NCBI RefSeq assembly: GCF_002788215.1
Contig: NZ_CP024845.1
Span: forward strand, 2,108,001 to 2,172,000
DNA from: Halohasta litchfieldiae
GTDB taxonomy: Archaea > Halobacteriota > Halobacteria > Halobacteriales > Haloferacaceae
Length of the DNA: 64,000 bases
Direction of reading: 5' to 3'
In this document: in pieces, positions 13,656-39,493 of the stretch
Layout: each line of letters opens with the position of its first letter
Numbering within the stretch: position 1 is the stretch's first letter
The notes under the pieces: model-generated
Told to the model about the DNA's origin: nothing
The model's input: only the letters and a program-made list of their open reading frames with translations
Database searches by the model: none
Made by a program: the position numbers and the translations under genes

Positions 13656-13730
13656 GGGCACGTAGCTCAGCTTGGATAGAGCGTCGGACTTCTAATCCGA
13701 CGGTCATGGGTTCGAATCCCATCGTGCCCG
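13656..13730 (+). tRNA. tRNA-Arg (anticodon TCT)
   Basis: A full cloverleaf. Acceptor stem GGGCACG pairs with CGTGCCC (13723-13729) with discriminator G at 13730. The anticodon stem TCGGA/TCCGA encloses the loop CTTCTAA, giving anticodon TCT for AGA codons. The T-arm is the standard GGTTCGAATCC. No intron and no encoded CCA. The gene is a possible integration target because a T-arm copy lies about 100 bases downstream. Confidence 0.96.
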
Positions 13731-16135: not shown

Positions 16136-17245
16136 TTAATCCTGACTATGTGCGGCCTCCGAAATCGGTGTCGACTGTGAACTGTAGCTCTCACCGCCAG
16201 TCCATGCCGGGTTCTCGTCGACTCCGTCGTGTTGGAGTTCGAATACTGAGCCGGTTCGGGCGTAGATAATCGGCGTCTCCTGGCTCCGGTCGAGTGTGTA
16301 GCCCAGCGGGAGCGTTCGCTCGGCAGTCGTTGGCGACAGCGTGAACGTCGACGGAACGGTTACCGTGGTCGTCGCGCCCGGCTGTAGCGTGAGGTGGGGT
16401 CCGAGCCGATAGCGCGTCCGTGTTGTGTCGGTGATCGTTGCGTTCGTCAGCCCAACGGTCTCGCTCCCGCCGTTTTTGATCGCCAATTCGATCTCGTCGT
16501 CCGTGGTTGTGGTCCCGACGATAGCAAGCTCCGTTCGCCGCGTCAGTCCCGTCTCGTATCGGTTGTAGACGATGACTGTCCCGACGAGCCAGACCAGCCC
16601 GGCGACGATCACCAACGCTGCCGTGTCGACGCCCAGAAACCAGAGTCCACCGCCGGTGGCCGCACCGATCACGAAGCCGACCAGTGAGGCAAGCGTCCGT
16701 GTCTCCAACCGGCGGAGTTCGGCATACCCACTTCGAACGGCAATCGACTCCTCGGCGGTCGATGATACTTCGGTTGGGTGCGGCTGTCGCAACACCCAGT
16801 AGGTACTGACCGGCCACGTAGCGAGGCTGACGCCTACGATCAGCGATATTGGGACTGCGTAGACGATGCCCACGGTTGCGGTGATACCACCGACGATAGC
16901 TGCGGTCAGCACACCAGTGATGATCGCTCGCGCGCGTCGGGCAAGCCCGTTCCATCGCTCGACCAGCGGGTCGACGCGGTCGCTACAGAACTGTGTGATG
17001 TCACTGCTGTGTTGGTTGAGGAGGCGTCCCACCAACCCAACCACGAAACAGACGACGAACGTTTGGAGGAAAACACCCACAAACGGCGGACCGAGCCGTT
17101 CTGGCAGCAATGAGAGTCGACGTGGGGTCCCGACCGCTCCGACAACAGCTGTCACAACTGCTGCGACAACGACCGACACAACCGTGAGCCGGAGGTACTG
17201 TGCGGCGTACTTTTTGCCTGCCTTTCGAACACGTTTGACGACCAT
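16136..17245 (-). CDS. Polytopic membrane protein of unknown function
   Basis: A 369-residue protein with about six hydrophobic segments in residues 15-235, then a soluble beta-rich C-terminus of about 130 residues (EIELAIKNGGSETVGLTNATI...), likely an Ig-like domain, and a polar Ser/Thr tail. The basic N-terminus (VVKRVRKAGKKY) indicates an inside orientation. It is divergent from the eCIS cluster across about 180 bases, so the two may share control; a role in anchoring or release of the particle is speculation. No family recognised. Confidence 0.6.
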   Translation of the reverse strand: MVVKRVRKAGKKYAAQYLRLTVVSVVVAAVVTAVVGAVGTPRRLSLLPERLGPPFVGVFLQTFVVCFVVGLVGRLLNQHSSDITQFCSDRVDPLVERWNGLARRARAIITGVLTAAIVGGITATVGIVYAVPISLIVGVSLATWPVSTYWVLRQPHPTEVSSTAEESIAVRSGYAELRRLETRTLASLVGFVIGAATGGGLWFLGVDTAALVIVAGLVWLVGTVIVYNRYETGLTRRTELAIVGTTTTDDEIELAIKNGGSETVGLTNATITDTTRTRYRLGPHLTLQPGATTTVTVPSTFTLSPTTAERTLPLGYTLDRSQETPIIYARTGSVFELQHDGVDENPAWTGGESYSSQSTPISEAAHSQD

Positions 17246-18179: not shown

Positions 18180-21100
18180 ATGAACGGCAGCCGGTGGGAT
18201 GACGGAGCCCTTGAACCACAAGTTCGGGAGATTGCGGTCACCGAGTCCGTCAGTGACACTCTCGGGGAGTCTGATCGCGGGACTGGCGGTATCGAGACCA
18301 TCACGACTGGGATTGATTTTGACTCGAATCTCGGGTTGATAACGGTCGACGGAATGGAGCCGACTGCTGGACGCCTCGGCAATGGTGGCCTGTTCGCCGG
18401 GCTGCTCGGCCTCAATATCGCTCGCTACGACAGCCCAGCACGGCTCACGTTTCGTGACCATACGTTCGGTGTCGACGCAACCGACCCGGACTCGCCACTC
18501 GATCATCCCGCAGCTGTCCCACGTCCTGTAGATGTCCCACGTCCTGCAGATGGACCTCATCCTACGAATGGCTCACTGCAGGCGGCTGGGTCGCCAGTTC
18601 CCCCCGACATATCTGGGTCGCCGGTCGACCACGAGACGCCGATCTCGATGGCCAGTGATCCTAATCTGACCACTCGCAGCACACAGTCCGGTCCGTCGAC
18701 TGATCTTCGCCACCGATTACCGGCCGACACAACTGCGCACTCTGTCTCACCCATCGCTGCCAGTCATGATCCGCGAACGCTGGTGTCGGTTACGGGTTCG
18801 CGTCGACAGGTGGCCACTCCTGCGGACGCCGGCCCCACAGAACACTCACACGTCCCCCGACCGTTGATTCGGTCCCGTCGGCCACTGGCGGAACTACAGT
18901 CTTATTCGGCCGAGCATGACCGCTCGCGCCGTCTCTCTGCGTCGACAGTGGAGTCGGCTACGGTATCAGATGGCTACTCTGCTTCTGATCCGACCATCCA
19001 TGCGTCTGTCAATGACGCCAAGCCGTCTCGGCGTGTGTCACTGCCCGATCCTCCGGGACTGTCGACGGCTGAGACAGTCTGGCAGCCGCACACTCCGACA
19101 CCAGATCGGTCCCCCGTCGACTCGTCGGGACGGCTATCTGTCGACACCCACCGATCTGTCGACAGCTCCCAGTCGGCTCCCTCACGGAGACGGCTACCCT
19201 CCCGGCGAACGTCGACGGCGGCTGGTCGGCCTACACCCCCCGACACGACACCCCCGCAGTCGGTCAACCAGCTATCGGCAGTCGACCGTTCGCAGACTCC
19301 GACGACAAGACGTGTCTCGTGGCCACGGAGTACTGATTCACTGGCTACACAGCCCGACAGTACCCACCGTAGCCGGGCACCCTCCCGACACCGACTGGCT
19401 GCTGTCGACCCACTTGACGGTACCACACCACCGAGTGGTAGTGGAGCAATGTTCTCGGTACCGTCGGCTCGGAGACCGAAACCCCGTTCGGAGCGCGTGG
19501 GCGTGACTGTTGCTGGAGAGACAACTGATGTAGAGCCGAAGGAGGCGACACCGACCGCCACAGCAGGTCGTGGACACTACGACCGCCCATTCACCACTGC
19601 ACAGCAGTCCGGGCGGCGGCCATCATCGGGTCGACTGATCCAATCACCTGGTCAACAGAGGCAGTCCCAGCGACAGCCTTCGACTGCAGACATCTCGATA
19701 CTGCGGCCGTTCATTCATTCCGGCAGTTCGGTTGCGTCGACACCATCGACCCTTCAGCGCTCTCAGTTCGACAGGCCTCCTTCCGGGTCCGGACTCTCCA
19801 GCGACGCTGTCGAGTCGAACGCACGCGTCTTTCGGACTCTACCCAGTGCTCGCAGCGCAGTTTCGGGTCCCGAGCGTCGACTGCAACCGACACAGTCAGC
19901 CACTCAAGCTAGTCATCAGGCACGCTCTCAGCCGCCGTCGACCGTCACCGGTGGACCCACGACCAGCCGGTCGCCGACTCGACAGCACACCAGCCGCCAC
20001 AAACCACGGCAACGGCTTTCGGCGAGGGCTGCGACCTCCAACGATCAAACCGCTGTACGTGAGTTGTTCTCGACGAGCCGTCGACGGTCGGTTGTCGGCC
20101 ACCGACGGCTGCAGTCCCAGTCGCCGATGCCAGTCCAGTCGGGGAATCGATCCCGAGGCATGGCTGGCGCTCGGAACACACAGTCGACCGGTTCGGCTGG
20201 CCGCGGTACGTTGACCGAACAGCACTCTCGGCAGGACCACCGGCGGTCAACTTCTGAGACGGCATTAGCACGGACACAGGTATCCGGCGCTGCTCCCGGC
20301 ACCTCGATGGCTGTGACGGTCGACCGTGGGGCGACTCCGAGGAATGACCGCCGGCTAGCCCCGACGAATGGCGGCCAGTCAGCCAGCCACCCAGTCTCCC
20401 GTCGACAGTCACGAACGGGACAAACTCGAACGCCGACGCTGTTACCGGAAGCAACCGGTCGACGCCCGGCTGTCGATTCGGTCGGTGGCTGGGCGTCACT
20501 CACACAGCCACGACAGACCGCCGTCTCTCGGCTGTCGACTGCCTCGGTCGCCGGTCGAACTGTCGACCGGCACACCTCGGCGCTCTCTCATCGCTCATCG
20601 GTGTCGACGCCTGATCGAAACCTTCCGAATGCGGCTGACGCTCGCCAGCAGCCAGAGACGGTCGGATTGGCCATCGCGACCACCGACCGGAGCCAGTCGG
20701 CATCCGATGGTCGACGCAGCTTCATATCCGGTTCTACAGGATTCTCATCCGGTTCTCTAGAATCATCTCCGAGCGCGCACGCGGCACCTCAGACAGCGTA
20801 TGCGACTATTACCCCTCCCACGAATACGACTCCACGTGCCATCCGGTCGACTGCCGTCGGGACGTACCGATCCATTGAGACGAGTCTCGGATCGGCCGAC
20901 GATGCCAGTCGTGGGCAGTCTCACCCAGCCCTTGCTACTGTCTTCCCAAGTCGAACAGTTTCCAATGGCCCTCGTCTACGGGACACCACCGACCACGCGA
21001 CCCAGCGGCGGCCACGGCAGTCGTCCACTGAACTCAAGCGAGTTAGATCTCGTTCCGTTGGGTCTGGCTCGCCTGAATCAGCATCTAAGGATCGGGAACC

Positions 21101-22436
21101 CCACCACCGACTGACTCCGCTTCAGTCGACACCGGTCGTTGTCGAGTCGGCGATGGCTCCGGTCCGGACTGGCTCGATTGCGACACCGAGCGAGTACTGG
21201 CCATCGAAAGCCGATACGTCGAAGGCACACAGCGAACAGTCCGAACGTTTTCGACCTTCGGATCGCACGCCACGCAGAATTGGAGCCGCGTCACCGGCGA
21301 TCACCCGAGCAGACTCCTCACAGGGTGCCGCTGCCACCCGGCAGTCGACTGAGCCCAGACCACTGCCCCAGCTTTCATTGCCAGCAGGTCTCGCCTCGCG
21401 ATCTGCCGAGGGCGTCGTATCGTGGGATCGACTCGCCGACACCGGTCGACTGCGAGGGCAACACCCACCGAGTACGCTGTCGACGGCTCCCCGTTCCGAC
21501 GCCGTCTCACTGGATCGACACCAGCAATCAACACCCAACGCAGCTACTGGGCCGGCTGCGGTCGAGACACACCGTGGTGAAGCCCAGCCGGAGTCGACTG
21601 TCGGGCTCCGACACCATCGACAATCGACGGCGGGAGCGATGTCCGGCGGTGACACGGCCGGTTCGATCCACGAGCGGTCCGTCGACCGGACACGGATGTC
21701 GACTAGCTATGATGCGACTGTGCTGTCAGTGGCTGCGATGGACAGCCACCCGAGAGTCGCCGACCAAGATGACGACCGTCGACACCGTGCTGGCGGGACC
21801 ACAGCCACCGTTTCTGGTGGTGTCGACTGGACGGCCCACAGTGGCCGAAACTCCCAGCACTCCCAGCAGTCCACGGCCGCCACCGCGACCCGACCCGGCG
21901 AAACGGAGTCAGAAACGGCAATCGACTCGATGGCTCCGAAGATGGTCCCAGCGCGCTCGGGGACTGCCACGAGAGGCGCAAAATCGAACACAACCGATGG
22001 TCGACCCCAGATGACGTTCAAACAGTCATCGAGACAGACGGCTCACGATGGTGACGCCGACGCGGGCGACAGTGCCAAGCGTCGTGTCGACTCTCCCCGA
22101 CAGCGACCCGAGCGGTCCTCGGCTGGTGGCGGTGTGGCTGGTCGGGCTGACCCACAGCCAGCGTCGACGCGGCGCGATGAGACGATGGCTGAGTCGGAGC
22201 CATTCAATTCGGTCGACCGGCCCGACCATCAGCCCAAATCGAAGACGGACCAGACCCCGAATCGACGCCACCACCATCGACAGGACACTGACCGGCAGTC
22301 GGACCGGAGCGGTCTCGACGGGTCGCTCGGCGCGGAGTCACTGGCCTACGATGCCGACGTCGACCGCGTAGTCGAGACGTTGTATCGTCGGCTCGAACGC
22401 AAACTACGGATCGAACGCGAACGGACGGGATTCTAA
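18180..22436 (+). CDS. Giant Arg/Ser/Thr/Pro-rich eCIS protein with conserved-looking ends
   Basis: A 1418-residue protein of unknown function. Residues 1-100 look folded (DFDSNLGLITVDGMEP, GLFAGLLGLNIARYD, RLTFRDHTFGVD). About 1250 residues of low-complexity Ser/Thr/Arg/Pro/Gln-rich sequence follow, with very few aromatic residues and Arg far above Lys. The last 30 residues are a charged amphipathic helix (DVDRVVETLYRRLERKLRIE). It ends one base before the LysM gene, so it is part of the eCIS operon. No other long protein in the cluster could be the tape measure, making that role or a scaffold the leading guesses; the disordered composition is unlike helical tape measures. The strong positive charge is unusual for a haloarchaeal cytosolic protein. 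Confidence 0.8.
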   Translation: MNGSRWDDGALEPQVREIAVTESVSDTLGESDRGTGGIETITTGIDFDSNLGLITVDGMEPTAGRLGNGGLFAGLLGLNIARYDSPARLTFRDHTFGVDATDPDSPLDHPAAVPRPVDVPRPADGPHPTNGSLQAAGSPVPPDISGSPVDHETPISMASDPNLTTRSTQSGPSTDLRHRLPADTTAHSVSPIAASHDPRTLVSVTGSRRQVATPADAGPTEHSHVPRPLIRSRRPLAELQSYSAEHDRSRRLSASTVESATVSDGYSASDPTIHASVNDAKPSRRVSLPDPPGLSTAETVWQPHTPTPDRSPVDSSGRLSVDTHRSVDSSQSAPSRRRLPSRRTSTAAGRPTPPDTTPPQSVNQLSAVDRSQTPTTRRVSWPRSTDSLATQPDSTHRSRAPSRHRLAAVDPLDGTTPPSGSGAMFSVPSARRPKPRSERVGVTVAGETTDVEPKEATPTATAGRGHYDRPFTTAQQSGRRPSSGRLIQSPGQQRQSQRQPSTADISILRPFIHSGSSVASTPSTLQRSQFDRPPSGSGLSSDAVESNARVFRTLPSARSAVSGPERRLQPTQSATQASHQARSQPPSTVTGGPTTSRSPTRQHTSRHKPRQRLSARAATSNDQTAVRELFSTSRRRSVVGHRRLQSQSPMPVQSGNRSRGMAGARNTQSTGSAGRGTLTEQHSRQDHRRSTSETALARTQVSGAAPGTSMAVTVDRGATPRNDRRLAPTNGGQSASHPVSRRQSRTGQTRTPTLLPEATGRRPAVDSVGGWASLTQPRQTAVSRLSTASVAGRTVDRHTSALSHRSSVSTPDRNLPNAADARQQPETVGLAIATTDRSQSASDGRRSFISGSTGFSSGSLESSPSAHAAPQTAYATITPPTNTTPRAIRSTAVGTYRSIETSLGSADDASRGQSHPALATVFPSRTVSNGPRLRDTTDHATQRRPRQSSTELKRVRSRSVGSGSPESASKDREPHHRLTPLQSTPVVVESAMAPVRTGSIATPSEYWPSKADTSKAHSEQSERFRPSDRTPRRIGAASPAITRADSSQGAAATRQSTEPRPLPQLSLPAGLASRSAEGVVSWDRLADTGRLRGQHPPSTLSTAPRSDAVSLDRHQQSTPNAATGPAAVETHRGEAQPESTVGLRHHRQSTAGAMSGGDTAGSIHERSVDRTRMSTSYDATVLSVAAMDSHPRVADQDDDRRHRAGGTTATVSGGVDWTAHSGRNSQHSQQSTAATATRPGETESETAIDSMAPKMVPARSGTATRGAKSNTTDGRPQMTFKQSSRQTAHDGDADAGDSAKRRVDSPRQRPERSSAGGGVAGRADPQPASTRRDETMAESEPFNSVDRPDHQPKSKTDQTPNRRHHHRQDTDRQSDRSGLDGSLGAESLAYDADVDRVVETLYRRLERKLRIERERTGF

Positions 22437-34216: not shown

Positions 34217-34270
34217 TGTACCGTTTCAGACAGACAGTGCGGCAAACCAGAATTCCACAACGGAATACAA

Positions 34271-35977
34271 ATGCCAGAATACCAATCCCCTGGAGTGTAC
34301 GTAGAGGAAGTAGACACCGGGACCAAATCCGTAGAGGGAGCAAGCACGAGCACTGCTGGCTTCCTCGGCGAGACGGAGCGTGGTCCGGTTGAACCAACAC
34401 TGATTACGAGTTTCGGACAGTTCAAACGCACCTTCGGTGCGAGTCCCGCCTCGTCTGATCTCGATGCCGCCGTCGACGGCTACTTTAAAAACGGCGGCAG
34501 TCGGTGTTACGTCGGTCGCGTCACCGCTGCTGATCACGACGATATTGCAACCGCGAAACTTGCTGACGACAACGCGGAGTCAGTTCTCGAGGTGTCGGCC
34601 AACGGTCCCGGCGACTGGGCCAACAGCATGGCCGTCATCGTCTCGGACGGCCACGACGATTTCTTCGATCTCACCGTTCGCTACTGGTCGACCGATATCG
34701 AGAGTGTCGACCAGCCTGCCGCCGAGGAGCCGAGCCCAGCACCGGATATCGACCATACCTTCGAGGATCTGTCGGCTGATCCCGAATCCAGCCAGTTCTA
34801 CGAGAAACAGCTCGCTGGTTCGGTGCTCGTCGACGCAGAGTACCTCGCAGACGGTCAGCCGGTTGCGGGACTGACGTGGCTCTCGACGGCCAGTGACTCG
34901 GCGTCGGCAGCGACCGACGGCGGCCAGCAGACCGTTCAAATCCCAGAGGACCTCGATGAGAAAAACAAGGACGAACTACAGGATCTCAGCGAACCCTTCG
35001 AGAGCGTCGACAGCAGTCAGCTGAAGGCCGATCTGAAAGAAGATCTCGAAGCGATCCGCGACGGCGAGCAGGAGGTTGAGGTCGATGTCGCCTCGGATCT
35101 CTCCTCGAAACCAGATAGTGACGAAGTCTCGCTTTCCGATTACGAGGGCGTCGACCAGCCCGGGATGCGAACCGGGCTTGCCGGTCTCACACAGCACGAC
35201 GATATCTCGCTGGTCTGTGTTCCCGACGAGAACAAGATCACCGGACTGACTGACGCTGTGGTTGCCCACTGTGAGAACAAAGGCGACCGGTTTGCGATCC
35301 TGCAGGCCCCGCAGGTCGCCGGCGCAGTCTCGGATATGGAGACACCCGTCGACTCCTCGTATGCGGGCTACTACTATCCGTGGATCAAAGTGTCGGACCC
35401 CTTCACCAACCGCGAGAAGCTCGTTCCACCGGGTGGCCACGTCGCCGGGATCATCGCCCGCAGCGACGCGACTCACGGCGTCCATGCCGCGCCCGCAAAC
35501 GAGCCCGTTCGCGGTGCAGTCGAACTCCAACACGAGATTACGAAAGACGAACAGGATCTCCTGAATCCGAAGGGGATCAACTGTATTCGGAGCTTCCAGG
35601 GTCGTGGCATCCAGCTCTGGGGTGCCCGGACCTGTTCAAGCGACCCCTCGTGGAAGTACATCAACGTCCGTCGACTCTTCCTCTACGTCGAACAGTCCAT
35701 TGAGGAAGGCACCGAGTGGGCAGTCTTCGAGTCCAACGACAAGGATCTCTGGGCCCGCGTCCGCCAATCAGTCGAGAACTTCCTGACGACCGTCTGGCGT
35801 GACGGCGGCCTGCAGGGGTCGACTGCTGACGAAGCGTTTTACGTCAAATGTGGCGAGGAGACGATGACTCAGGACGACATTGATAATGGACGACTCATCG
35901 TGGAGATCGGCATTTCGCCGGTCAAACCCGCCGAGTTCGTTATCTTCAGAATCGGCCAATGGACGGCTGACGCCTAA
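34271..35977 (+). CDS. eCIS contractile sheath protein
   Basis: A 568-residue tail sheath protein that contracts to drive the inner tube. The N-terminus (PEYQSPGVYVEEVDTG, GFLGETERGP, SFGQFKRTFG) and the C-terminus (RRLFLYVEQSIEEGTEWAVFE, NDKDLWARVRQSVENFL, IGISPVKPAEFVIFRI) are the two conserved sheath blocks. In between is an acidic insert (residues 150-300, EEPSPAPDIDHTFED and DLDEKNKDELQDLSEPFE) that would form a surface domain on the particle. The ATG at 34271 gives the family N-terminus; the longer open frame upstream overlaps the previous gene. A single sheath gene contrasts with the several in Afp. Confidence 0.96.
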   Translation: MPEYQSPGVYVEEVDTGTKSVEGASTSTAGFLGETERGPVEPTLITSFGQFKRTFGASPASSDLDAAVDGYFKNGGSRCYVGRVTAADHDDIATAKLADDNAESVLEVSANGPGDWANSMAVIVSDGHDDFFDLTVRYWSTDIESVDQPAAEEPSPAPDIDHTFEDLSADPESSQFYEKQLAGSVLVDAEYLADGQPVAGLTWLSTASDSASAATDGGQQTVQIPEDLDEKNKDELQDLSEPFESVDSSQLKADLKEDLEAIRDGEQEVEVDVASDLSSKPDSDEVSLSDYEGVDQPGMRTGLAGLTQHDDISLVCVPDENKITGLTDAVVAHCENKGDRFAILQAPQVAGAVSDMETPVDSSYAGYYYPWIKVSDPFTNREKLVPPGGHVAGIIARSDATHGVHAAPANEPVRGAVELQHEITKDEQDLLNPKGINCIRSFQGRGIQLWGARTCSSDPSWKYINVRRLFLYVEQSIEEGTEWAVFESNDKDLWARVRQSVENFLTTVWRDGGLQGSTADEAFYVKCGEETMTQDDIDNGRLIVEIGISPVKPAEFVIFRIGQWTADA

Positions 35978-35982
35978 TACCA

Positions 35983-36435
35983 ATGCCAGATAGACACGGA
36001 CCACTCAGAGCAAACCGGTTTCGGATCGAACTCGATGGGATTCAGATCGGCGGCTTCCGCCGCGTCGAGATTCCGACCGAGCGAACCGAACAGGTTGAGT
36101 ATCGTGAAGGAAACGACCCGACCCACGACCGCGCTCTCGGCGGCAAGACCGTCTACGACGATCTAATCCTCGAACGCGGTTCCAAACAGGAAAACAGCGA
36201 TATGTTCGACTGGCGGCAGACCGTCGTCGACGGCAATCTCGACGAGGCCCGCAAGGAGATCGCAGTCATTCTCCAAGACGAACAGGGCGAGTCGCACCTG
36301 CGGTGGAACTTCACGAAGGCCTGGCCCAAGGAGTACCAGCCACCAGCGCTCAATTCAGGAGCTGGCGGTGGCGACAACGTTGCCACCGAGACCTACATTA
36401 TCACCTTCGACGAGATGGTGCGAAAAGACGTATGA
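35983..36435 (+). CDS. eCIS inner tube protein (gp19-like), first
   Basis: A 150-residue inner tube protein of the T4 gp19 type. The strand pattern LRANRFRIELDGIQIGGFRRVEIPTER, DPTHDRALGGKTVYDDLILERG and the C-terminal TYIITFDEMVRKDV match the family. It polymerises into hexameric rings forming the tube. Starts five bases after the sheath stop. A second, diverged tube gene lies 0.8 kb downstream. Confidence 0.94.
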   Translation: MPDRHGPLRANRFRIELDGIQIGGFRRVEIPTERTEQVEYREGNDPTHDRALGGKTVYDDLILERGSKQENSDMFDWRQTVVDGNLDEARKEIAVILQDEQGESHLRWNFTKAWPKEYQPPALNSGAGGGDNVATETYIITFDEMVRKDV

Positions 36436-36593
36436 CCGATAGTAAACCCTACAGCGACCGATATACGGTGTCGACCCACCACTTCGGTGACGAGAGCCGG
36501 GTTGACGAGCAGGGATATCTCCACACGGGCCGTGCTCAGCGACAGCCCGAGCGAGTGGTCGTCTCCTGCGGCACCACGGAGGGTCGCAGATGA
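36432..36593 (+). CDS. Small hypothetical eCIS protein
   Basis: A 53-residue ORF (MTDSKPYSDRYTVST...) nested between the tube gene and the chaperone gene. Its ATG overlaps the tube stop by four bases and its TGA overlaps the chaperone ATG by three bases (ATGA). This double coupling argues that it is real. The sequence is polar (HHFGDESRVDEQGYLHTGR) with no recognised family. Position suggests a small tube- or assembly-related part. Confidence 0.6.
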   Translation: MTDSKPYSDRYTVSTHHFGDESRVDEQGYLHTGRAQRQPERVVVSCGTTEGRR

Positions 36594-36991
36594 CCGACTC
36601 TGCGCTGCAGACTGAACACGAGTTCACCCTGCCGCAGGGGTACGTCGACGACGACGGAACCCTCCACAAGGAGGGTCGGATGCGACTAGCAACCGCTGCA
36701 GACGAGATCAAACCGCTGAAAGATCCGCGCGTCCAGTCGAACTCCTCGTATCTGACCGTCGTCCTGCTGTCGCGGGTCGTCACCGAACTCGGCGATCTAG
36801 AGACAGTCGACCCCGATGTGATCGAATCGCTGTTCGTTACTGACTTAGAGTTCCTCCAGTCGCTCTACGAGCAGATCAACACGCCCGATGACGCCCAGTC
36901 AGCCGTTCCCGGTGAGGCAAGCGGCCTAGAGCCGACCGGGATGGATGCGGTCGACGACGGTGAGGCGATGCCGGGAAACACGACCAGCTAA
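36590..36991 (+). CDS. eCIS tail-assembly chaperone (TAC_7-like), zero-frame product
   Basis: A 133-residue protein resembling phage tail-assembly chaperones of the E/gp41 type (Phage_TAC_7). The blocks are HEFTLPQGYVDDDGTLHKEG, RMRLATAADEI and VVLLSRVVTELGDLE with LEFLQSLYEQIN at the end of the folded part. In phages such proteins bind the tape measure and tube during tail assembly, and are made in two lengths by a -1 frameshift. The acidic C-terminal extension ends GNTTS just past a GGGAAAC heptamer, and the -1 frame stays open for 77 further codons. Confidence 0.75.
   Translation: MTDSALQTEHEFTLPQGYVDDDGTLHKEGRMRLATAADEIKPLKDPRVQSNSSYLTVVLLSRVVTELGDLETVDPDVIESLFVTDLEFLQSLYEQINTPDDAQSAVPGEASGLEPTGMDAVDDGEAMPGNTTS
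36973..36979 (+). promoter_or_regulatory. Predicted -1 ribosomal frameshift site GGGAAAC
   Basis: The heptamer G GGA AAC sits in the correct phase (X XXY YYZ): zero-frame codons are GGA at 36974 and AAC at 36977. It lies 10 bases before the chaperone stop codon TAA (36989-36991). It belongs to the GGGAAA class used by lambda G/GT (GGGAAAG) and by some retroviruses (GGGAAAC). No strong stem-loop is obvious downstream; a weak GTAC/GTAC pairing (36999-37020) is the best seen. Confidence 0.6.
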
Positions 36992-37212
36992 CCCCGCTGT
37001 ACGATCCCGACGAACTGTACGAAGAGGTTGCCTTCGTGGCCTACCATTTCAACTGGAGCCACGATGAGGTCCTGCGGATGCCCCACTGGGAACGACACCG
37101 GTGGTGCGATGAGATCAGCGCGATCAATGAGAAACTCAACCGAGATGCCGGTGGTAGATCAGCCGCCGACAGCGGCGGCATCGAGTTGGTCAACCCGGAG
37201 TTCGAGGGGTGA
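36979..37212 (+). CDS. -1 frame extension of the chaperone (DUF6760-like), predicted by frameshifting
   Basis: An open frame of 77 codons reading HDQLTPLYDPDELYEEVAFV and then AYHFNWSHDEVLRMPHWERH, ending at TGA 37210-37212. The block LYEEVAFVAYHFxW with a following MPHWERHRW resembles a small protein type found between the tube genes of bacterial eCIS (DUF6760-like). No ATG, GTG or TTG precedes this block; the first such codon is a GTG at 37036, inside it. Start by frameshift from the chaperone would give a 207-residue fusion; a CTG at 36997 is the alternative start. The real mechanism is inferred. Confidence 0.6.
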   Translation, partial: HDQLTPLYDPDELYEEVAFVAYHFNWSHDEVLRMPHWERHRWCDEISAINEKLNRDAGGRSAADSGGIELVNPEFEG

Positions 37213-37218
37213 TCGCTG

Positions 37219-37662
37219 ATGGGAACCGAAAACCCATATTCGCAGTATAATTTCGAACTCGAAGTCGACGGCAAGCCCGTCGCTGGCTTCTCGGAGGTGT
37301 CGGGACTGACGATGGAACTCGATACCGTCAGCTATCAAGAGGGCGGGGTCAACGACCACGTCCACCAGTTGCCCGGCCAGTTTGCGCACGCCAACCTCGT
37401 CTTGCAGCGCGGGTTGACCAAGGACACGACCTTCTGGAACTGGCTCCATGAGGTGATGAGCGGGACGATCAAGCGGCGAACGCTCGTGCTCAAACTCAAA
37501 TCCGGCTTCAAAGGTGAAAGCGCGTGGGGGTGGGAGTTCACTAATGCCTACCCGATCAAATGGAGCGGCCCGGATCTCACCGGCGGCGCAAACGGAATGG
37601 CAATCGAATCGATTGAACTCACCTATGAGCGGTTCGACACGCTCTCCGGCATGCCGGAGTAG
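37219..37662 (+). CDS. eCIS inner tube protein (gp19-like), second
   Basis: A 147-residue tube protein, paralogous to the first. Typical blocks are NPYSQYNFELEVDGKPVAGFSEVSG, DTVSYQEGG with QLPGQFAHANLVLQRGLTKD and the C-terminal ESIELTYERFDTL. One of the two tube proteins probably builds the main tube and the other a tube-end or adaptor ring, as with Afp1 and Afp5. Its ATG is six bases after the stop of the -1 frame ORF. It is the last recognisable eCIS gene. Confidence 0.94.
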   Translation: MGTENPYSQYNFELEVDGKPVAGFSEVSGLTMELDTVSYQEGGVNDHVHQLPGQFAHANLVLQRGLTKDTTFWNWLHEVMSGTIKRRTLVLKLKSGFKGESAWGWEFTNAYPIKWSGPDLTGGANGMAIESIELTYERFDTLSGMPE

Positions 37663-39421: not shown

Positions 39422-39493
39422 GCCTGGGTAGCTTAGCGGTAAAGCGCGTCCTTGGTAAGGACGAGAGCCCGGATTCAAATTCCGGCCTAGGCT
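39422..39493 (+). tRNA. tRNA-Thr (anticodon GGT)
   Basis: A complete cloverleaf with acceptor stem GCCTGGG/CCTAGGC (one G-T wobble), anticodon stem CGTCC/GGACG around the loop TTGGTAA giving GGT, T-arm GGATTCAAATTCC and discriminator T at 39493. No intron. Downstream lies a minus-strand esterase; no tRNA fragment repeat was seen there. Confidence 0.95.

Follow-up and report, generated by a model that had tools for sequence, protein, structure and literature searches.

How is a conserved protein domain expressed when its reading frame has no usual start codon upstream of it? The question is raised by a gene pair in the haloarchaeon Halohasta litchfieldiae, which lies within a 64,000-nucleotide stretch of contig NZ_CP024845.1 (hereafter, the window) and consists of a short open reading frame (ORF) followed in the −1 frame by a second, overlapping one. 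The original prediction, made from the window alone, was that a tail-assembly-chaperone gene of an archaeal injection system undergoes programmed −1 frameshifting here. Comparative evidence now backs this proposal, and we suggest that the pair is very probably a cellular counterpart of P2 E/E+E′, in which a contractile injection system uses programmed −1 frameshifting.

Architecture of the locus

Re-reading of the sequence confirmed the ORF coordinates and the exact X XXY YYZ phase that had been given for GGGAAAC (Table 1). The zero-frame ORF ends in GCG ATG CCG GGA AAC ACG ACC AGC TAA, in which 9 nt separate the heptamer G GGA AAC from the stop codon. It is the only in-phase X XXY YYZ heptamer of this ORF, and eleven other ORFs of the window (4,768 codons) hold four in-phase XXXYYYZ heptamers and no GGGAAAN. 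The −1 frame is open from position 36964, directly after a TGA (36961–36963), to 37212, and therefore spans the slippery site, which lies in shift phase within the overlap of the two frames. The earliest usual start codons in the −1 frame, which was correctly described as having no ATG, GTG or TTG upstream, are GTG 37036 and ATG 37078 (that is, inside or past the conserved block), and upstream of GTG 37036 there are only CTG 36997 and CTG 37015. Both predicted product lengths (that is, 133 and 207 residues) are likewise right, and the junction of the predicted trans-frame product reads ...GEAMPGN-HDQLTPLYDPDELYEEVAFVAYHFNW, with no Lys or Arg close by.

Table 1 Features of the chaperone/DUF6760 pair and its neighbouring genes in the window
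Feature	Position	Strand	Evidence
Cis2 sheath gene	34253-35977	+	PF04984 and PF17482
Cis1-type inner tube gene	35983-36435	+	PF06841 E=1.6e-30; best NCBIfam match CIS1_fam, below cut-off
Zero-frame ORF, predicted short chaperone form, 133 aa	36590-36991	+	PHROG_508 E=3.4e-9
GGTGA, Shine-Dalgarno-like, possible stimulator, 9 nt upstream of heptamer	36959-36963	+	Sequence
Slippery heptamer G_GGA_AAC, zero-frame phase	36973-36979	+	Sequence; kept in 47/53 other haloarchaeal loci
Zero-frame stop TAA	36989-36991	+	Sequence
−1 frame, DUF6760 domain, 77 aa + stop, predicted C-terminal extension of 207-aa long form	36979-37212	+	PF20546 E=8.7e-29
Cis5 inner tube adaptor gene	37219-37662	+	NF053770 CIS5_fam E=1.5e-83, above cut-off

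Conservation of the frame relation and the predicted shift site

Homologous loci were gathered from haloarchaea, methanogen-type archaea, bacteria and plasmids, near-identical ones were dropped, and the chaperone frame was placed by homology. With the window excluded, the 53 haloarchaeal loci form 34 clusters at 85% nucleotide identity, a clustering that is the sole correction for relatedness. DUF6760 lies in the −1 frame in 86 of the 88 loci (haloarchaea, 51/53; methanogen-type archaea, 8/8; bacteria, 27/27), and none of the 88 carries an in-frame fused homologue. In L002, L009 and other loci, where the −1 frame is open over a long stretch, an apparent in-frame fusion was considered and rejected, given that the chaperone ends at its own stop.

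An in-phase GGGAAA followed by T, C or G (25, 20 and 2 loci, respectively) occurs within the last 16 chaperone codons in 47 of the 53 other haloarchaeal loci, and in 36 of these 47 its distance to the stop is exactly 9 nt. Shuffling the codons of the tails gave a mean of 0.37 such loci and a maximum of 3 (2000 trials), and redrawing the codons with the proteins kept gave 3.2 and a maximum of 9 (500 trials), against the 47 observed. Where Gly-Asn occurs in other long ORFs, the coding that the heptamer requires (a preceding G and GGA) was found in 1 of 39 cases. AAT is also enriched at the heptamer (25 AAT versus 20 AAC) relative to the rest of the chaperone genes (45 versus 259). The alignment check that had been proposed, on whether the heptamer and the −1 overlap are kept in homologous clusters, thus gave a positive answer in nearly all loci.

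Outside the haloarchaea the slip signal differs and its position is the same. GGGGGAA occupies the same place in 7 of the 8 methanogen-type loci (0.07 expected), and a run of five to seven G lies in the last five codons of 25 of the 27 bacterial loci (0.5 expected), each of these G-runs beginning with the last base of a zero-frame codon (that is, in shift phase). The feature is therefore not confined to archaea: bacteria and methanogens carry a G-run instead of GGGAAAY. One bacterial locus, L064 of Streptomyces flaveus, has DUF6760 in the −1 frame but neither a G-run nor a start codon, and only GCGGGCAGA is found near the stop.

With regard to possible stimulators of the shift, Shine-Dalgarno-like matches of at least 5 nt within 22 nt upstream of the heptamer were found in 32 of 48 haloarchaeal loci, versus 12.9 ± 3.0 in codon shuffles. 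A search for a 3′ stimulatory RNA structure yielded nothing convincing (mean z of −0.5; RNAalifold z of −2.1 on 73 nt and −0.4 on 123 nt).

Families of the two halves

The −1 block, which had been noted as looking conserved, matches DUF6760 over residues 5–66 of the −1 product, and this match begins upstream of any usual start. A structure model of DUF6760 is a helical domain, for which Foldseek returned nothing. When the DUF6760 profile was compared with P2 E′ (as a single sequence), hhalign gave E=9.5e-5 and a probability of 59%, and PHROG_10636 is common to P2 E′ (2.2e-5) and 30 of 66 DUF6760 proteins (best, 9.7e-6). Together, the shared PHROG_10636 family and the hhalign match indicate that the −1 half is related to P2 E′ beyond merely working alike (that is, homologous to an extension known to be made by frameshifting), and DUF6760 is most likely an E′-type extension.

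The zero-frame protein has no Pfam match and belongs to PHROG_508 (‘tail assembly chaperone’), a family matched by all 58 of its relatives; by this family membership it is classed as a tail assembly chaperone. One relative matches PF10109, the P2 E/Mu 41 chaperone family (E=6.9e-5). Given that direct comparison of P2 gpE with the chaperone profile detected no similarity, the link of the zero-frame half to P2 is drawn from PHROG_508 and this one PF10109 match. The structure model of the chaperone has a confident fold at approximately residues 11–100 and a disordered tail that carries the shift site; its best Foldseek match, YqbN (3klu; E=0.45, probability 0.69), is not significant, and sequence searches of the PDB gave nothing useful. 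Most chaperone relatives possess a CPxC zinc-ribbon-like motif before the C-terminal tail, which is absent from the window and its closest relatives (L028, L032 and L033).

Start codons and alternative explanations

The relation between start codons and the slip site bears on how DUF6760 is expressed. Among the 48 heptamer-bearing haloarchaeal loci (window included), 30 chaperone genes end in TGA and 18 in TAA or TAG. An ATG or GTG overlaps the stop in 26 of the 30 TGA loci, because the last codon ends in G or A (for example, GAG or GAA) and is read in the −1 frame; the 18 TAA or TAG loci have no stop-overlapping start, and 12 of them, the window included, have no start at all. All 15 start-less haloarchaeal loci carry the heptamer, and all six heptamer-less ones (L031, L040, L068, L071, L072 and L074) carry a start codon, DUF6760 being a separate ORF after the stop in L071 and L072. 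When the other groups are included, start-less loci nearly all have a slip site, bacterial L064 being the exception. That heptamer and start codon replace each other suggests that both serve the expression of DUF6760, with frameshifting as the usual route. Homologues that have a normal start but no heptamer, which the original prediction had named as evidence that would speak against it, thus amount to only 6 of the 54 haloarchaeal loci and are complementary to the rest.

These data also bear on the possibility that DUF6760 is a separate protein, produced through re-initiation or translational coupling at a nearby start (often a stop-overlapping ATG or GTG, or CTG 36997 or CTG 37015 in the window). 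Such initiation could add to or replace frameshifting in the 26 TGA loci with an overlapping start, and it is consistent with the presence of a start in all six heptamer-less loci, with the separate ORFs of L071 and L072 and with RefSeq, in which DUF6760 is annotated as its own gene in Haloferax larsenii and others; moreover, the two chaperones of T4-like phages reportedly arise without frameshifting (Vladimirov 2022, as cited in PMC13222765). However, an overlapping GTG is a mechanical result of GAG preceding TGA, and no ATG, GTG or TTG lies between the slip site and the conserved block in the window, 14 other haloarchaeal loci and more than 20 methanogen and bacterial loci. In the window the first usual start comes only after the PF20546 match has begun, and separate initiation leaves the fixed-phase conservation of GGGAAAN unexplained. 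We therefore consider separate initiation unlikely as the account of this locus.

Slippage of the RNA polymerase, by which a minority of mRNAs would join both frames, could in principle be permitted by the runs of five to seven G in bacteria and methanogens; yet the homopolymer runs of GGGAAA are too short for it, and the X_XXY_YYZ zero-frame phase is what tandem tRNA slippage needs, whereas a polymerase is indifferent to phase and codon boundary. Phage relatives show the identical phase at T_TTT_TT, and we regard this explanation as very improbable. Still less credible is that the overlap reflects gene disruption or an error in the assembly: a one-base difference between two frames can give such an overlap, but the −1 relation is repeated in nearly all of the other archaeal and bacterial loci and no in-frame fused homologue is found, which already contradicts it. 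Programmed −1 ribosomal frameshifting remains the explanation that we favour.

The surrounding injection-system cluster

The pair follows the sheath gene and lies between the Cis1-type tube and Cis5 tube adaptor genes, in a cluster that also contains baseplate, spike, Cis7, Cis12, Cis13 and Pvc16-type genes. Because genes for tube, sheath, baseplate and a Pvc16-type cap stand together, the cluster is classed as a phage-derived contractile injection system. Downstream of the tube gene, the pair is followed by Cis5 and not by a tape measure gene. Of the earlier designation ‘archaeal eCIS’, the contractile injection system stands and the eCIS class is not established, given that the experimentally studied haloarchaeal systems act as membrane-bound T6SS (PMC11566945); a T6SS-like machine may be encoded here instead.

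Several neighbouring features deserve mention. Beside the cluster, a 369-aa ORF (16136–17245, − strand) has, by eye, the look of a multi-pass membrane protein that ends in a soluble C-terminal domain; it is a candidate for a membrane anchor of the Hbor_38620 type, as known from archaeal T6SS (PMC11566945). Between the Pvc16-type gene and Cis7, a 1418-aa ORF (18180–22436, + strand) is rich in Ser, Arg, Thr, Ala and Pro and has no Pfam match; similarity to its C-terminal 25 residues (DVDRVVETLYRRLERKLRIERERTG) is seen in ORFs that follow the pair in bacterial L054 (E=5e-5), L130, L056 and L064, and it may be the missing Cis6 or a tape-measure-like component and is a candidate scaffold for the chaperone. 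A 53-aa ORF (36432–36593, + strand) between Cis1 and the chaperone, which overlaps the chaperone ATG by 4 nt and is kept in most haloarchaeal loci, has a motif (RVDEQGYLHTG) that resembles YVDDDGTLHKEG at the chaperone N terminus. The injection-system cluster is flanked by tRNA-Arg(UCU) (13656–13730, + strand) and tRNA-Thr(GGU) (39422–39493, + strand) and could be an island.

Proposed mechanism and its implications

How the frames are arranged, how far the signal is conserved, which families the two halves belong to and the kinship of the −1 domain to P2 E′ are read directly from the sequences. From here, we infer slippage and its efficiency, as well as a stimulating role of the Shine-Dalgarno-like element, as follows. 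The majority of ribosomes would terminate at TAA 36989 and yield the short chaperone, and a minority would slip back by one base at G_GGA_AAC, enter the DUF6760 frame and produce the 207-aa form. In this slip, tRNA-Gly(UCC) on GGA would re-pair on GGG and tRNA-Asn(GUU) on AAC would re-pair on AAA with a wobble mismatch; the host encodes tRNA-Gly UCC, tRNA-Asn GUU, and tRNA-Lys UUU and CUU. Because AAG is read by the CUU tRNA, shifting at A_AAG, the site favoured in bacteria, may be inefficient, and this may explain why T or C is the last base in 45 of the 47 heptamers. On mammalian ribosomes, G_GGA_AAC ranks among the sites most prone to shifting (PMC5009743). By homology with P2 gpE and gpE+E′, the short form would coat an elongated assembly scaffold, and the C-terminal domain of the long form would bring tube subunits to this scaffold while tube and sheath are built. 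We consider a −1 frameshift at this locus very probable, and it is almost as probable that the locus encodes a two-form tail assembly chaperone by this means; the part of the frameshifted product in assembly, for which P2 and lambda serve as the analogy, is likely.

A broader conjecture, which we put forward tentatively and think somewhat doubtful as a whole, is that a conserved −1 module derived from a P2-like contractile phage is general in the phage-derived contractile injection systems of archaea and bacteria, that haloarchaea use in it G_GGA_AAY, a type of site that mammalian ribosomes favour, with enrichment of the rarer AAU, and that injectors without a classical tape measure regulate their assembly or length through the proportion of short to long chaperone.

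Tailed phages are known to frameshift in their chaperone genes, and the same has been predicted for haloviruses (PMC5009743, PMC7911831); known −1 recoding in archaea is scarce, fucA1 being the one gene that a 2021 review lists as demonstrated, alongside predicted cases (PMC8211752). The main texts of the haloarchaeal, Streptomyces and Algoriphagus system papers that we examined do not mention frameshifting, and our literature search, which covered mostly open papers (so that an earlier description is possible), found no frameshifted chaperone described in injection systems, in agreement with the statement in the original prediction that no case was known from archaeal eCIS. If the proposed mechanism is true, contractile injection systems, including archaeal T6SS-like ones, hold an overlooked two-form assembly chaperone, the long form of which is invisible to ordinary annotation, and DUF6760 gains a function. 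With dozens of conserved sites, haloarchaea, a group amenable to genetics, would also allow direct tests of archaeal −1 frameshifting, and the question arises of which scaffold the chaperone serves where no tape measure is recognised.

Comparison with known systems

Searches of 50,697 phage records with DUF6760 and the chaperone (tblastn) gave no match, and relatives on phage contigs emerged only through an alignment search of IMG/VR. In six such contigs (L137, L140, L141, L142, L144 and L147) a related chaperone ends across T6 or T7 in T_TTT_TT phase, after which a DUF6760 relative occupies the −1 frame (E=1.1e-21 by profile comparison), with no start codon between the two in L141, L142 and L147; in L140 the gene order is sheath, tube, chaperone and PhageMin_Tail tape measure. 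The chaperones of L137, L140 and L147 also match PF12322, a T4 base plate protein (E of about 1e-7 to 2e-7), and those of L137 and L140 also match PHROG_150 (baseplate hub).

The parallels with lambda G/GT and P2 E/E′ that had been drawn at the outset gain weight from the relation of DUF6760 to P2 E′. As in the window, P2 encodes sheath, tube and a chaperone (gpE/gpE+E′; PF10109 Phage_TAC_7 and PF06528 Phage_P2_GpE) with a −1 extension, in the same direction and phase, and its −1 frameshift is annotated at TTTTTTG. By contrast, the P2 site T_TTT_TTG is followed by the tape measure gene T and the window site G_GGA_AAC by Cis5, and the zero-frame proteins lack direct similarity. Lambda gpG/gpGT likewise yields two chaperone forms from one gene by a −1 shift, at a G_GGA_AA. 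heptamer (PMC5009743), but for a noncontractile phage tail. Haloviruses are predicted to use G_GGA_AAC, G_GGA_AAG and G_GGA_AAT (PMC5009743, PMC7911831), and the HF1 group would require a +1 shift (PMC7230728); the chaperone pairs of HVTV-1, HCTV-1/2/5 and Hardycor1 are virus genes that adjoin the tape measure, whereas the pair in the window belongs to a conserved cellular injection system. GGGGGAA, the motif of the methanogen-type and many bacterial loci, was seen by the PRFect authors in about a thousand annotated actinobacteriophage frameshifts (PMC10885494), which concern phage chaperone genes, and the haloarchaeal site is instead GGGAAAY. Among cellular systems, a chaperone-like, Mu-gp41-like ORF was noted in 2014 in some bacterial phage-like translocation clusters (PMC4122934), but it was said to occur in no more than a number of bacterial genomes, with neither a frameshift nor a −1 domain described. 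The Halogeometricum borinquense system shares the cis gene set of the window and, like it, lacks recognised cis6, cis14 and cis19; no tape measure is recognised in H. borinquense, and the main text on that system speaks of neither a chaperone nor frameshifting (PMC11566945). Set against these systems, the proposed mechanism is a known one in a new setting, namely a cellular injection machine of both archaea and bacteria, in which the shift site takes its own form in haloarchaea and no adjoining tape measure is recognised.
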